From contig NC_021833.1 of the NCBI RefSeq assembly GCF_000439455.1, positions 496,001 to 560,000 of the forward strand: a stretch of 64,000 bases of DNA, written 5' to 3'. Source of the DNA: Spiroplasma diminutum CUAS-1. GTDB lineage: Bacteria; Bacillota_I; Bacilli_A; Mycoplasmatales; Mycoplasmataceae. Position numbers and translations under genes: made by a program. Position 1 is the first letter of the stretch. Each line of letters starts with the position of its first letter. The notes beneath the pieces are model-generated. The model saw only the letters and a program-made list of their open reading frames with translations. It searched no databases and was not told where the DNA came from. Positions 2,930 through 43,099 of this stretch are shown one piece after another.

Positions 2930-3160
2930 CTAAATTTGAAATAGTTTTGATTGAGTATCAATTATTCCAATTAATTCTTTAATTTGTGTAATGATTTTTC
3001 TTTTTGGTCCACAATAAATTTTTTTTAATTTCAAAGAAATTTCAATTAAACTGTATTCATTACAAACTTTTAGAACTTTACCTTTAGCTATTAAATAGCT
3101 TGAGTTTGGATAATAATTAAATTTTTTATTGCATTTAAAGTTTTGACAAATATTATTCAT
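2930..3160 (-). CDS. Small hypothetical phage protein (76 aa)
   Basis: The product is basic (MNNICQNFKCNKKFNYYPN, later CGPKRKIITQ) with four Cys residues, possibly a zinc-binding or nucleic-acid-binding protein. The start codon overlaps the stop of the 130-residue gene (TAATG), so the two are translationally coupled. It lies in the replication part of the prophage. I do not recognise the family. Confidence 0.55.
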   Translation of the reverse strand: MNNICQNFKCNKKFNYYPNSSYLIAKGKVLKVCNEYSLIEISLKLKKIYCGPKRKIITQIKELIGIIDTQSKLFQI

Positions 3161-3552
3161 TAGCTAATTAACTCTCCTGTACTAGAATCTCTAAAATTTC
3201 CTTTTAATCTCATAAATTCAAAATATTCTGGTTCCATTAATGATAGATATCTTATTTTCCCCTCGGTATTTTTTTGAGTACTGATAATAACGTAGTTTAA
3301 ATATTTTTGATCTACATAAACATCTCATTGATCAGTATTTTTGTTAAATTTTAATTTTATAGACATTCCAGATGTTTTCATAGGATTATTTATTTCAATC
3401 ATTTTTCCTTTTATACCGCCAACAAATGCCTTTATATTACTTTTCTCTGTTGTAGAGAACTGTAAAGTGAATTGTCTTTTCCTGTTTCTATTTTCTAAAG
3501 CTGTTTCCAGTCAAAACTTCAATATTGGACTTTTTAATGTTATTTTTTCCAT
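3160..3552 (-). CDS. Hypothetical phage protein (130 aa)
   Basis: An intact frame starts 6 bases after AGAAAGG, reads MEKITLKSPILKFWLETALE and ends STGELIS. Two TGA codons are read as Trp. The protein is rich in alternating hydrophobic and polar residues, as in a beta-rich fold, and has no membrane segment. It sits between the large foldable RNA block and the small Cys-containing genes, so an early or replication role is likely. No family recognised. Confidence 0.55.
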
Positions 3553-3561
3553 ATTTTTCCT

Positions 3562-3945
3562 TTCTTGAATTATTTAAAACCTTCGAGAAAAATCACATTC
3601 TTTCCAGAGTCCACTCAGGTTAGACGCACTTTGCCCTACAAAAAAGCAAAGTGCTATTCTTTCGGTCACCACGCAACGGCCAGCATACACGCGAGCATCA
3701 TTTACATTTTCTGCCCCAAAAACCTTTTCAGGAGTCTCGCTTTTGCAACTCGTAAGAGTTCAGACTGCCATAGTTTAAAACTATCTACCCCTAGCTAATG
3801 CTAGATGTGTTTTGAGCGCAACCCCAAAACTACCCCGCCTTTTAATAGATGCGGACTCTAATGGTTCACGTATACCACAACCGGATAACAATTTTGCCGC
3901 TTCCGCAAGTCTCATAAGCCGTCTCTAGCCAATTTCTGTAATCAG
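3562..3945 (-). ncRNA. Large, G+C-rich structured RNA candidate in the prophage
   Basis: Between the resolvase gene and the 130-residue gene lie about 380 bases without a coding frame. By hand count, 136 of 300 bases (45%) from 3601 to 3900 are G or C, far above the surroundings. Perfect local stems are 3626-3634 with 3646-3654, 3747-3751 with 3756-3760, and 3791-3795 with 3800-3804. A 7-bp long-range stem, 3606-3612 with 3853-3859, would close a domain of about 250 bases. This is how large phage or ornate RNAs look, and I cannot match it to RNase P, tmRNA or a group I intron. The strand is inferred from the flanking genes; there is no obvious terminator, so it may be processed from the operon transcript. 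Confidence 0.6.
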
Positions 3946-3948
3946 GAT

Positions 3949-4413
3949 TTAAATAATTCTTATATAATTTTCTTTTTTAGCTGATCTGTAATAGTAAATG
4001 ATTATTGCATCTACTTCATGCTCATTGATATGACTTAAATTTCAAAATCATCCACCAGCGCGACCAGTTTTAAATATTAGTCCATCAAAGTTTTTTTCTT
4101 TTCTACGAATTTTACCTTTAAAGTTTTTAATCATGAAAGAGTTAATTTTAAATATGTTTTTATATTTAATTTCAATTGCACCAAGTAGCTTAGCATACGA
4201 AACCATATCTGCATTAGCTACATTGTTCTGTAATGGTCTCATTTCTTCAAAAATAATACATTCGTTTATTAACGGATATAATATTCTAATTTTTTGTATA
4301 AAGTTAAAATGTTCTTTTCATTCTTTACTAAAGAAAGTATAAATATTAAAACCATCAAAAATAGAAGTGGTTCCTGTTCCAGACAAGTCAATTCCTAAAT
4401 AGTAACTATTCAT
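3949..4413 (-). CDS. RuvC-like phage Holliday junction resolvase
   Basis: A 154-residue protein begins MNSYYLGIDLSGTGTTSIFD. The GID plus following GTT is the first catalytic segment of RuvC-fold nucleases (Asp 9). Acidic residues follow at IIFEEM (about residue 59) and HEVDAIII (about residue 135), fitting the usual D-E-D layout. Such enzymes resolve branched DNA before phage packaging. The length is typical of the compact phage forms. Three TGA codons are read as Trp. The ATG at 4413 follows a GGGGG site and is in another frame from the broken gene before it, overlapping its end by a few bases. Confidence 0.6.
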
Positions 4414-4737: not shown

Positions 4738-4743
4738 AAGAAC

Positions 4744-4771
4744 AAAAAAAGACGAATTTATCGTCTTTTTT
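4744..4771. terminator. Bidirectional terminator between prophage block and the 346-aa gene
   Basis: GACGA (4751-4755) pairs with TCGTC (4761-4765), extended by A and T runs on both sides. It can stop minus-strand transcription leaving the 346-residue gene. Confidence 0.7.
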
Positions 4772-4828
4772 CTATTTTCCTACCTCTTTGTTATACACCC
4801 AATACTCAAATAAGCATTTTTTAAATCT

Positions 4829-16720: not shown

Positions 16721-17602
16721 TTAAATATCAAAAAAATCTATGAATATATGATCATATATTCTTTCAATTCAAAATAAATTTTTAGCTTTTTTTGATGAGA
16801 ATTCCATCATAAAACTTTGTTCTAAAAGTTCATAGTAAGTAGATCAAATTTCTTTATAAACATTTAGTATTTTTTCATTAGTTTCTTTTATTTCGCTAAT
16901 TTCTTTCTCACTTAGATCTTTTTTATTTGTAAATATAAAAAGACCATTTTTTGACTTTAAATCATTTTTTTTAAAAGTCATATTTAAATAGTTATCTGAA
17001 AATTTTGCATCATCAAATAGTGATTCATTTGAAAAATATTGACTTTTTATTAAATTTTTATACTTTGCTTCTATATCTTTATTTGCTTCAGTTAATTTCT
17101 GAAATGAATTTAAAAATGAAGGTAATAATAAAACATTAAGCATTGATGTTAAAATTGCTTTCATTAAATGTTTAGTGTCTAATAGCTCAAATAATTCATA
17201 GTTAATAAATATAACAGTTGTAAAGTTAACAACAATTATATAAATTCAAAATCATATTGGACTGAATTCGATACATCTTTGAGCTTTAAAATTGTGTTTT
17301 TCTAATTTTAAATTATAGTCAAAAACAAAAATTAATTGAAAGTATTTATTTTTGGCAAATCAGTTTGTATAAGTAAACTTTAAAAGTAAATAAATACTTG
17401 TTCCTACAACTGTTCAAGATATTAATTTTTGCTCATTTTTTAAGAAGAAATTTAATATAAATAGGATTAATGTTAATGAAAATATTGATTGGTCTAATAT
17501 AAATAAAAATAACGCAAATGGATTAGTTTTAAAAAGTTTTTTAACTAATTTATTATGCTTGTGAAGTAATTTTGAAGTATTTTGACTATTTTTTGATTTC
17601 AT
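16721..17602 (-). CDS. Membrane protein (293 aa)
   Basis: The frame opens MKSKNSQNTSKLLHKHNKLV, overlapping the end of the upstream gene by 17 bases, so the two are coupled. It has about four helices (FALFLFILDQSIFSLTLILFI is the first), then a soluble lysine-rich C-terminal domain. Several TGA codons, as in FSPIWFWIYI, are Trp. The family is not recognised. Confidence 0.6.
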
Positions 17603-18482
17603 TGTTCTTAATATTATTTCTAAAGTTATTTGTTTTAGAAGCTATAAATAAATATAAACTTCCTAGACCAATTATTATTCCCAAAATAGTTATAATTGCT
17701 ATAAACATTCATGTTATTCCACTGTTAATAAATGTTTCTCCTAATTCTGAACTAAGAGCTTTTTTATTATGAATTTCTAAAAAGAAATATGGATATGCGC
17801 CCTTTTTACTTGCCAATAATGCATCTGATCCTAAACTTTTATAAATCAATTCACCTCTTGTAAGTGAAACAACCAAGTAAATTAATGGATAAATAAGCAT
17901 TTTTCAAAAATCATGAACTATAAATTCTTTAAAGTTAAAAGTGATATTTTGCTTCATAAAAAATAAGAAATAAATAACAGTTAATATCGGTCCAATTGTA
18001 TGTAAAACCATTTGTTCAATTCATCAAATGGGTTTTAAACCATCACCAAGTGGTGATGCTAATAATTGGGGTAAAAGTAGTCCATTAAATATTAAAGCTG
18101 TAACTGTAATATAAGTTATAATACTTAATGAAAATGCTTTTGTAAGAACTTTCATTTGTCCTTCTTTGTTATGATTAAAAAATCCAATAATGAATCAAAT
18201 TACAACTAAAATATTTGATTGAATTGTAAAGTAACTAAAAAAGTTAATTATATAGCCTTCATAGTCATAACCAATTATTTCTATTCCTTGATCTAAACTT
18301 GAAATTATAGGACTATAAATTGCTCATTTTTGATATTTTTCACCATTATATTCATAAAAACTGTGGTCAATATTTATTATTCCTTTAATTAAACTTTCTA
18401 ATACAAATGCAGAAATTAATAACGCTACTGCTAATTTATATCAAAGTCTTCAATCTTTTAAATTTTGTTTATTTATAAACAT
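17586..18482 (-). CDS. DUF1600/Pr6Pr-like membrane protein
   Basis: The 298-residue protein has about six membrane helices. The segments FFSYFTIQSNILVVIWFII and IEQMVLHTIGPILTVIYFLF are close to the conserved parts (TxQSN and LH..xPI) of Pr6Pr and Mollicutes DUF1600 proteins, whose function is not known. It starts MFINKQNLKDWRLWYKLAVA after an AGGTG site and is coupled to the next membrane gene by a 17-base overlap. Confidence 0.65.
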
Positions 18483-36365: not shown

Positions 36366-38488
36366 TAATTATTAATTTTATGTTTTACTCTTTCTGCTTC
36401 TTCAGCTTGCTTTCCTTTATTTCAACCATCTAAATCACCAACTAAATAACCAGTAATCCTTCTTGTTCTTGAAATATTTTCATTTCCACACATTTGACAT
36501 TTAAATGGGATTAAAGAAGTATAATTACATTCTTTACATCTATCCACTGGATGATTTAAGCTTCCATAATTAATTCCATATACTCTCATTGCATTGATAA
36601 TAGAAAGTACAGCATGTAAATTTTTTTTAGCTTCACCATCAAGTTCAATATAACTTATACTTCCAGCTAAAGTTAAACTATGATAAGCAGCTTCCTTTTT
36701 AATTTTATTTATAGCACTAATATTGTAATAAACAGGAATATGGTTTGAGTTTGTAAAATATTCTCTGCTTGTAATTTCATTAATTTCTCCAAAATGTTTT
36801 TTAGTAATAATCATCATTCTACCTGCAACAGATTCTGCTGGAGTTGCAATTACTCCAAAGTTTAAATGAGTTTTTTGTTTTCATTCTAAAGCAACTTCAT
36901 TAATAACTTTCAATATTTCTAATCCAAAGTTCTGAGCTTCATCATTTTCTCCATGATGAAAATTTAATAAAGCTTTTAATGCTTCTGCTAAACCAACAAA
37001 TCCAATTGTTAATGTTCCTTGTTTAAATACTTCTTTTACAAATTCTTGTGGTTCTAAATCTTTTCCTCCAGTTAAAATATTGTTCATCATTAAAAAAGGA
37101 AACTCTTTTGCAAGTGCAGTAGATTGATAATTAAATCTTTCTAAAAGTTGATCACAAACTTCTTGAGAATAAAATTTCACTTTTTCTAAATATTTATCTT
37201 TTATTTCTTTTTTATTAATTGAATTAAAATCAATTTCATTATTAATAATTTTATTTTCTTCTTTTAATAATTCTAAAGCTATGTAAGGTAAATTTAATGA
37301 TGTAAAACTTAAATTACCTCTACCTATTGATGTTTTATCACCATTTATATTTTCAAAAACTCTCGTTCTACACCCCATTGTAGCAGGTTCATAGTATCAA
37401 GAATTTTTACTATTCTCTTTTCATAATTCATGAGTATTATATTCCTGATCCAAAAACATAAAGTTTGGAAATAGTCTTAAACTAGTTGTTCTAATAGAAT
37501 TTAAAAATAAATCAAAATTTTTTGCATTTCAAATATTATTATCGTTAAATCAGTCTTCTTGATTCATATTCATTGCTTTTTTATAATCATTTTCATCAAA
37601 ATTAATTCCAGTTTTAACTTTAAAAATTACAATTGGGAATATTGAAGTTTCACCATTTCCCAAACCTTCTTGTAATGCTTTTAAAAGAGATTTTGTAACT
37701 TGTCTTCCTTCTTTTGATGTATCTGTTCCAATATTTATTGAAGAAAAAACTACTTGATTGCCACCCCTTGAATGTTGTGTATTTAAATTATAAATAAAGC
37801 CTTTCATTGCTTGATCTGTTTCTTGAATAACATCTTTATTTGTTATATTAAATATTTTTTCAAAATCATTATCAGTTAATTTTATATTAGTTAAATAAAC
37901 TTCCAATTTACTTTTATTAATTGATTTAAATTTAATTTCTTCATCCAATTTTATTTTATTTAATTGATCTTCGTTAAATTCTATTTCTGAAAAAATAAAA
38001 AAGTTCTTCAAATTTTTTATTAAAGCTTTTCTAAAACTTTTATTTACTCCTGGTGCCATAAAATAATCAAAGGCTGGTATTGATTGCCCTCCATGCATTT
38101 CATTTTGAGCAGTTTGAAAAACAATTGCTGCCAATTCAGCATATACTTGAATTGATTGAGGTTCTCTAATTAAACCATTTCTAGTTCTAAAACCATTTGA
38201 AAATATCTCTTGAATATTATATTGTACACAAGTTGCTGATTTAGTTGGGTAATAATCTAAATCATGTATATGAATTAAAGATTTATTATGAAGTTCTGCA
38301 TGAAATGGTTTAAGTAAATTTTCTAAAGCATATTCTTTTGAAGTAATTGATGCAAACTTCATCATTTTTCCACTTGGAGTGTTACCATTCATATTAGCAT
38401 TTTCATTTTTAACATCATTATTACTTATTGATATAGCTTGATTAAAATCTTTTAAAATTTTATCAGAATTTAATTTTTTATTATTCAT
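36365..38488 (-). CDS. nrdD: Anaerobic ribonucleoside triphosphate reductase
   Basis: NrdD makes deoxynucleotides without oxygen, using a glycyl radical. The 707-residue frame has the radical site [12 protein letters not shown] near the C-terminus (the RxxGY glycine loop) and a zinc site of two Cys pairs, [18 protein letters not shown]. The active-site segments [10 protein letters not shown] and [15 protein letters not shown] are also present. Near the N-terminus, [14 protein letters not shown] lacks a full ATP cone, so the enzyme may be regulated differently. Several TGA codons are Trp. It is upstream of nrdG. Confidence 0.92.
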
Positions 38489-41829: not shown

Positions 41830-42575
41830 ATTAAAAAATCAATATATTTTCAAAGATGTATTAACTCAAAGTTTCTATCAATAAATGTTTTTTCAAAATT
41901 CTCATTGTCAAAATAATAGACATTATTTTTATTACCTGATAAATAGTCTTTTCAATTTAATGAAGCAATAATAGCTATATTATTTGTATATTTTATTACA
42001 TGTTCAAAAACTTTTTTAAGAATATTATTATCTCTTCCTGAAAAAATAAATAAGAAATTATTTTGATTTATATCAATATTTGTAATACTTAAAATATCTC
42101 TTTCTATTTTAATAAACTTATTATCAATATTATTTTTTAAAAGTACATCTTCTAAAAAGATTGTAGAATATTCTGTTTGATACGAAGAAAAAATAAATAT
42201 TTTATTATTTTTTAATTCTTTAAAGAATTTGCATAGTGAAGTTCCAACCTCATCTATTCATTTATTTAATATCTTATTTTTTTCATCAAATAATACTTGT
42301 TTTTCATTCATAGTATTATTAGATACCTTTAATATAAAATTATTTTCAAATTCAATTTTTAAACGTATTTGTAATTCTCTATAACCACTTACAAGTGCAG
42401 CTTTTGAAAATGATGTTATTGTTGCTTTTGAACAATGACAACTAAATGCTAAATCTTCTTGACTTAAAAAAATACCATTTGAAAAATCATCTAATATTTT
42501 TTTTGATATTATTTTAAATACTGTATTTCTATTTTCTTTTCCCAAATTATCAATTCTAGTGTAAATAGACTTCAT
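41823..42575 (-). CDS. RpiR-family transcriptional regulator
   Basis: The 250-residue protein has an N-terminal helix-turn-helix with the CSKATITSFSKAALVSGYRE stretch and a C-terminal SIS-like sugar-phosphate domain (KIFIFSSYQTEYSTIFLED). The order HTH then SIS is that of RpiR proteins, which sense sugar phosphates. The SIS part is short and weakly conserved. It stands first, before the PTS and glucosidase genes, so it probably regulates them. One TGA is Trp. Confidence 0.75.
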
Positions 42576-42619
42576 TTTTAATTACTCTTTTCTTTCATTT
42601 TAATTATACAAATAAAGTA

Positions 42620-43099
42620 TTAAACTAAAATATAATTTTTTACTTTAATATTGTTTTTATTAAATGATTCATTCTTATAAGTAAAACCTAACTTTTCCAT
42701 AACTTTTCTTGATGATTCATTACCCTCTTTAAATGACGCTGTAAATATATTTATATTAAATTTCTGTCTATATAATTCAATTATTTCTTTTGCAGCTTCA
42801 GTGCAGTAACCTTTATTTCAATAATTTTTGTTTATAATTCATCCAAGATCTACTAAATTTTCTTTTAATCTTGCTTCTATAATACCAATAAGTTTATTAT
42901 TTTCTTTAAGAACAATTCCATACTTACCTTCAAAATCATCTATAAAAATTTTTGTTATTATTTCTTTAGTCTCATCCAAAGATTTATGAGTTATAAAATC
43001 TACATACTTTGTATTTTCTAAATCTGATGAATATTCAAAAATATCTTTAGCATCTTCAATTTGTATTCTTCTTAGAATTAATCTTTTTGTTTCAATCAT
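42620..43099 (-). CDS. GNAT-family N-acetyltransferase
   Basis: The 159-residue protein begins MIETKRLILRRIQIEDAKDI, the RimJ/RimL-type opening. The acetyl-CoA binding motif is seen as NKGYCTEAAKEIIELYRQKF (QxxGxG/A-like) near residue 95. Length is typical. Acceptor unknown. One or two TGA are Trp. It is a single gene between the RpiR and fructokinase genes. Confidence 0.75.

Follow-up and report, generated by a model that had tools for sequence, protein, structure and literature searches.

Positions 3593 to 3930 of the window (the whole 64,000-nucleotide stretch of Spiroplasma diminutum CUAS-1 DNA analysed here) encode, on the minus strand, a structured RNA of approximately 338 nt whose 5′ end lies at position 3930 and which represents a new RNA family of mollicute mobile elements, absent from Rfam. 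The family is known from six genomes, all belonging to one mollicute family (that containing the window and those designated G013, G027, G004, G031, and G064), its members ranging from 338 to 383 nt in length. We consider the chances evenly balanced that this RNA acts in cis as the processive antitermination leader of the long operon of its element, and rate at somewhat short of even the fuller proposal that it constitutes an undescribed class of RNA antiterminator, of approximately 340 to 380 nt, the hairpins of which are conserved and include a GNRA hairpin and a loop, UUGC, that is invariant; in Mollicutes, this class would pass between conjugative elements and tailed phages and would drive their long, terminator-studded operons.

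Identification and structure of the RNA family

The genome containing the window comprises a single contig of 945,296 bases in which TGA specifies tryptophan. The initial annotation, derived from the sequence alone, had drawn attention to approximately 380 non-coding bases at 45% G+C between positions 3562 and 3945, with perfect local stems. This composition was borne out (G+C of 0.453 over positions 3601 to 3900, against 0.20 to 0.28 in most neighbouring intervals) and the stems were found exactly as described, the local stem GCACTTTGC/GCAAAGTGC being read in the window sequence at positions 3626 to 3654; the RNA is indeed located within the proposed limits, the conserved element lying slightly inside them and on the minus strand. 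As had been described, a mobile element here carries a structured non-coding RNA that is rich in G+C.

A BLAST search covering 60 genomes from the bacterial family recovered three relatives, located in G013 (93% identity), G027 (92%), and G004 (75%), while the first match in G054 proved to be a 29-base chance match inside a gene. Construction of a covariance model from related prophages had been suggested with the initial annotation, and the model built from the window and these three sequences (R1) identified two more full-length members in two further genera, G031 (E value of 1.7e-12) and G064 (8.5e-7). When a second model (R2), built from all six sequences, was applied to 298 genomes from the order and 395 from the class, the significant matches were confined to the known relatives, all others having E values of 0.008 to 0.9; the E values of both models are rough owing to a short calibration. 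These weak matches were judged to be due to chance, as the five inspected were located in or overlapped host protein genes or were devoid of the other domains, and R1 matched none of them. Searches for the RNA in phage and plasmid nucleotide collections found nothing, and scans of genome and viral collections with exact patterns returned chance matches only, Spiroplasma genomes being absent among the loci listed. The proposed Rfam search, which covers GOLLD, ROOL, and other large RNAs, yielded no match for the window at the gathering threshold, nor any up to an E value of 10 over 701 bases, and scans of the loci around three relatives were likewise devoid of a relevant match.

Short open reading frames are present in the region (44 aa at positions 3781 to 3915 and 65 aa at positions 3574 to 3771), and folding of the single sequence is only modestly unusual (z scores of −2.04 for the minus strand and −2.73 for the plus strand), both of which would fit a protein-coding region or the chance folding of a G+C-rich patch. 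Against this, stops occur in all six frames of every member, even with TGA taken as Trp, and 1-nt indels separate the copies of close relatives, so that these frames are interrupted and translation is excluded. The initial annotation had named a coding frame with homologues, or relatives devoid of conserved pairing, as observations that would speak against an RNA; the frames are broken, and covariation is extensive across the six members, a result which refutes the coding or chance-folding explanation and leaves it highly improbable.

The comparative evidence for an RNA structure is far stronger than the thermodynamic evidence. In a sequence-only MAFFT alignment (A5) of the central part of the RNA, in which hairpins A, C, D, and E were scored, 95.7% of cells were paired, compared to 73.0 ± 2.3 in shuffled alignments; both-side changes were apparent in 17 of 24 pairs, compared to 6.5 after shuffling, and sliding the partners reduced pairing to 32 to 47%. 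In a second alignment, curated by hand over the full RNA and fitted by eye, there are 70 pairs, 32 of them with both-side changes, and 97% of the cells are paired. This curated model supersedes the long-range pairing predicted by RNAalifold, which was used for R1, and is preferred because distant relatives support its hairpin A.

Following the minus strand from its 5′ end, the model comprises a GNRA-tetraloop hairpin (positions 3897 to 3908), whose loop is GGAA in the window and GAAA, GUGA, or GAGA in relatives and whose stem covaries in the hand alignment; the 5′ strand of P1a, UCCGG (3881 to 3885), which is partnered by positions 3603 to 3605 (GGA, with a bulged U), contains one covarying pair only, and is weak in the window (3 bp) and strong only in G031 (8 bp); and hairpin A, UGGU-AUACGUGA-ACCA (3862 to 3877), with both-side changes in three of its four pairs. 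Dimerisation via the palindromic loop (ACGU) of hairpin A was considered and rejected, the palindrome not being retained in G031. The 5′ strand of P1b (3853 to 3859, GGACTCT) pairs with its 3′ strand (3606 to 3612, AGAGTCC) to form the 7-bp long-range stem of the initial annotation, which is perfect in the window and retained in part among relatives: it is kept by both-side changes in G031 (AGUGU/AUACU), in three relatives contains a single A-G mismatch, and receives no more than partial support in G064. Hairpin C, GTTTTGGG/CTCAAAAC (3809 to 3830), displays the loop GUUGCG, of which UUGC is invariant, and all eight of its pairs vary, six of them on both sides, in the sequence-only alignment. 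Also on the minus strand are hairpin D, TCTAGC/GCTAGG (3790 to 3805), with both-side changes in five of six pairs; hairpin E, ATAGTT/AACTAT (3770 to 3784), preceded by a conserved GG[U/A]AG; domain F (3733 to 3766), closed by AGUCU/AGACU in the window and by AGACC/GGUCU in G031; and, from the hand alignment, hairpin G (3626 to 3654), GCACUUUGC/GCAAAGUGC, replaced by GCAGUUUGC/GCAAACUGC in G031.

Deviations from Watson-Crick pairing are predominantly G-U rather than A-C (24:1 in cells and 8:1 in columns, P of about 0.02), which points to the minus strand as the RNA; this test is supportive rather than conclusive, since G-U was allowed when the pairs were chosen.

Carrier elements and gene neighbourhood

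In the window, the RNA is located in a decaying Spiroplasma prophage; G013 carries it in a tailed prophage (terminase, phrog_2, E value of 5e-7), and G027 and G004 carry it in remnants. The G031 carrier is a conjugative element of approximately 47 kb, encoding a T4SS coupling protein (PF02534, E value of 9e-40) and a weak relaxase match, which occupies a site between host ribF and rpsO; the RNA is the first feature encountered in this element, and the element genes are co-directional with it. This insertion splits the conserved infB-rbfA-truB-ribF-rpsO cluster (L081/L104). The carrier in G064 also harbors a conjugation operon (PF02534, E value of 2e-32), and here the RNA is located at the right end and faces outwards, such that the operon would be reached only after circularisation.

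The placement near an element end in several genomes, together with the requirement of conjugative elements for an oriT and a single-strand origin, is in keeping with a DNA-level structure (a single-strand origin, oriT, or packaging or replication site) whose hairpins would act as single-stranded DNA, and covariation is also expected of such hairpins. This explanation appears improbable in view of the strand-specific tolerance of G-U pairs, somewhat biased as that test is, the RNA-like nature of the GNRA tetraloops, the occurrence of the family in tailed prophages as well, and the position of the RNA away from the relaxase gene in G031.

The RNA and the element gene that follows it share a strand in all six genomes, the RNA being upstream of and co-directional with the operon, and a small same-strand gene begins 30 to 115 nt past the RNA. 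That gene in the window (positions 3160 to 3552, minus strand) specifies 130 aa, has no assigned function, and differs between elements, the next genes (130, 76, about 41, and 72 aa) not being homologous to one another. The invariable presence of a small downstream gene might suggest another type of cis-acting leader, sensing a ligand, a protein, or temperature, or serving as a translation or stability element for that gene; however, non-homologous next genes are a poor fit with the control of one specific gene, neither an expression-platform terminator nor a helix sequestering the Shine-Dalgarno sequence was seen, and we regard such a leader as unlikely.

Two other small genes are shared between the element kinds: one whose product begins MTEETKVDE (positions 95 to 553 of the window) is common to the prophages of the window and G013 and to the conjugative element of G064 (approximately 17458 to 17931), and a homologue of a 76-aa gene at positions 2930 to 3160 of the window is found in the conjugative element of G031, which indicates gene exchange between phages and conjugative elements. 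The prophage remnant of the window additionally harbors a DUF3800 gene (positions 638 to 1477; PF12686, E value of 1.5e-12), for which G013 has no counterpart at the corresponding position. Genes of the DUF3800 family are known to lie beside other orphan RNA motifs.

A comparison of the window with G013 gave 92% identity for the RNA (95% in its core), against 84% for the RuvC region and 76 to 83% for downstream segments; between G013 and G027, the corresponding values are 95% for the RNA and 88% for the RuvC region, the RuvC copy of G027 being a pseudogene with stops. The earlier argument that preserved pairing beside decaying phage genes would suggest selection finds support in the intact RNA next to this pseudogene and, judged from these sequences, the RNA region is non-coding and under selection. 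The relationship is reversed between G013 and G004, with 96% identity in the RuvC region against 80% in the RNA beside it, a pattern suggestive of mosaic exchange, or of recombination swapping RNA variants.

The RuvC/RNase-H-like gene itself (positions 3947 to 4413, minus strand; 154 aa with TGA read as Trp) immediately precedes the RNA in the window, as the RuvC-like gene also does in G013 and G004. Its product shares the motif GIDxSGTGTT...E...HxxDA with homologues, although no Pfam family was matched above threshold. No RuvC gene lies beside the RNA in G031 or G064, and RuvC homologues in multi-copy prophages of other Spiroplasma occur where the RNA is absent. Because each is found without the other, the two do not appear to be functionally tied; the RuvC-like protein was rejected as a partner of the RNA, and a functional link is probably not present. 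An omega-type guide RNA was likewise discarded, as the Rfam model IS605-orfB-I scored 11.9 bits against a gathering threshold of 94.2, and did so outside the RNA, while the neighbour that would have to serve as the TnpB-type partner is a RuvC-like protein of small size, the gene for which is missing next to the RNA in two relatives.

Sense terminators and the proposed antitermination mechanism

Operons studded with sense terminators require a terminator-resistant polymerase. The 1.03-Mb genome of G031 contains one hairpin terminator, AGTAGTACGAAAGTRCTGCTTTTTT (repeated hairpin sequence, AGTAGTACGAAAGTACTGCTTTTTT), in ten near-identical copies genome-wide, all of which are intergenic, lie on the strand of the RNA, and are located downstream of it within the element, with none elsewhere; the terminator was never found in the reversed control. 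The ten copies span C1:585399-617394 (L081, L100, L104). The element of G064 harbors five near-identical sense terminators of a sequence differing from that of G031, and in both genomes a sense terminator is also located approximately 150 to 215 nt upstream of the RNA. The window contains a minus-strand sense terminator upstream of the RuvC-RNA unit (positions 4743 to 4772), possibly an insulator, and others follow the RNA on the same strand, ahead of the DUF3800 gene (1494 to 1520) and ahead of the MTEETKVDE gene (591 to 621), the latter terminator having a similar counterpart at the same place in G013 (L006, 11151 to 11176). Intrinsic sense terminators thus occur inside the operons of both element kinds, as single internal copies in the window and G013 and in greater number in the conjugative elements; prophages without the RNA contained no such repeated terminators.

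In the proposed mechanism, the promoter would lie close to an end of the element, and the RNA would be the nascent leader of the transcript. The RNA would then fold on the elongating RNA polymerase, alone or together with a host or element protein, and enable it to pass the intrinsic terminators that separate the element genes, whereas transcripts begun elsewhere, which would not contain the RNA, would halt at the first terminator. The family, its structure, strand, and placement, and the terminators were computed; from these we infer that the RNA is an antiterminator, because its size, position, orientation, and context match the pattern of canT and conAn, which provide for the reading of such operons in conjugative elements of Gram-positive bacteria. 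Features which speak against an antitermination leader are the few internal terminators of the window's own prophage, the mere 3 bp of P1a in the window in the curated alignment, and the RuvC-like gene directly upstream in the window, G013, and G004, owing to which the RNA may not sit at the 5′ end of the transcript.

Repeated terminators are not specific to RNA-bearing elements, a possibility that was considered and rejected: four conjugative elements and one fragment from the same bacterial family, in which the RNA was not detectable, contain two to eight repeated sense terminators. The terminators therefore do not single out the RNA as the agent, and the link between the two is circumstantial; conjugative elements of this kind probably need antitermination. 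Similar terminator sets, each specific to its element, were observed in the conjugative elements of G019 (8), G064 (5), G065 (5), G076 (5), and G027 (4). The G+C-rich noncoding regions of RNA-less elements were considered as variants of the RNA and proved to be tRNA genes or inverted-repeat elements. Among the repeats observed is a multi-hairpin sequence of approximately 300 nt and 47% G+C (L139, 15044 to 15452; G065, 37181 to 37560 and 42547 to 43078), which is 96 to 98% identical between two genomes, occurs in both orientations inside conjugative elements, and looks like a small inverted-repeat mobile element.

Should the antitermination proposal be correct, a new class would join the few known RNA-based processive antiterminators, one RNA family would serve phages and conjugative elements alike, RNA antitermination would extend to wall-less bacteria with reduced genomes, and the manner in which such elements keep operons of 30 to 47 kb silent yet fully expressible would become testable. 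Were the mechanism to prove wrong, there would still be a well-supported but unclassified family of large structured RNAs, with six members and a covariance model.

Comparison with known RNAs

GOLLD and ROOL RNAs are often located near phage tRNA islands and form homo-oligomeric particles. The ROOL RNA env-120 measures 659 nt and many GOLLD RNAs exceed 800 nt, and ROOL can equal 16S rRNA in abundance (PMC12286853). The initial annotation had raised a possible likeness to these RNAs, and the present family does share with them a large, ornate, non-coding RNA carried by prophages and other mobile elements, an elaborate multi-hairpin structure with conserved loops, and conservation beyond that of the neighbouring genes, as might be expected of a stable, trans-acting or self-assembling RNA which is processed from the operon and accumulates as a particle. 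The likeness fails, however, by Rfam model, by size, the members being about half to two thirds the length of those RNAs or less, and by setting, as a tRNA/tmRNA search of the 64-kb window found none and hence no tRNA island. Evidence of abundance is likewise absent from a strand-specific RNA-seq study of S. diminutum and S. taiwanense, which names tmRNA and RNase P alone among non-coding RNAs with high expression (PMC5726471), although the RNA locus might have been counted there as a hypothetical gene or have been silent at the time. A stable ROOL-like RNA is accordingly considered doubtful, and less likely than an antiterminator.

A closer resemblance to the proposed antiterminator is provided by canT of Tn916, a cis-acting RNA of approximately 340 to 450 nt located at the element end, which reads into its operon only after circularisation (PMC11658703). 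Like canT, the RNA described here is a structured RNA of several hundred nucleotides near the end of a conjugative element, oriented into a terminator-containing operon, and its outward-facing layout in G064 is that of Tn916; unlike canT, with which it was compared by description only, the family is also present in terminase-bearing prophages. The conAn system of pLS20, composed of the protein ConAn1 and the RNA conAn2, overcomes more than 20 internal terminators and likewise opens a long, terminator-studded conjugation operon with a structured RNA (PMC8955417). The presumed conAn2, a 383-nt gap after the first gene of the pLS20 operon (3083 to 3465; z score of −4.6), is not homologous to the Spiroplasma RNA by model: over 1.8 kb including this region, whose exact limits are presumed, R1 and R2 with filters off gave best scores of 4.8 and 10.2 bits, respectively, which are at chance level. 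RNA-only, cis-acting processive antitermination, as proposed here, is known from the put RNA of HK022 and the EAR of Bacillus subtilis (PMC9378689, PMC11658703), from which the Spiroplasma RNA differs in that it resembles no Rfam model up to an E value of 10, any models of these two elements included. As judged by these comparisons, the new RNA family probably works as canT and conAn2 do, a likeness of function which does not imply kinship.
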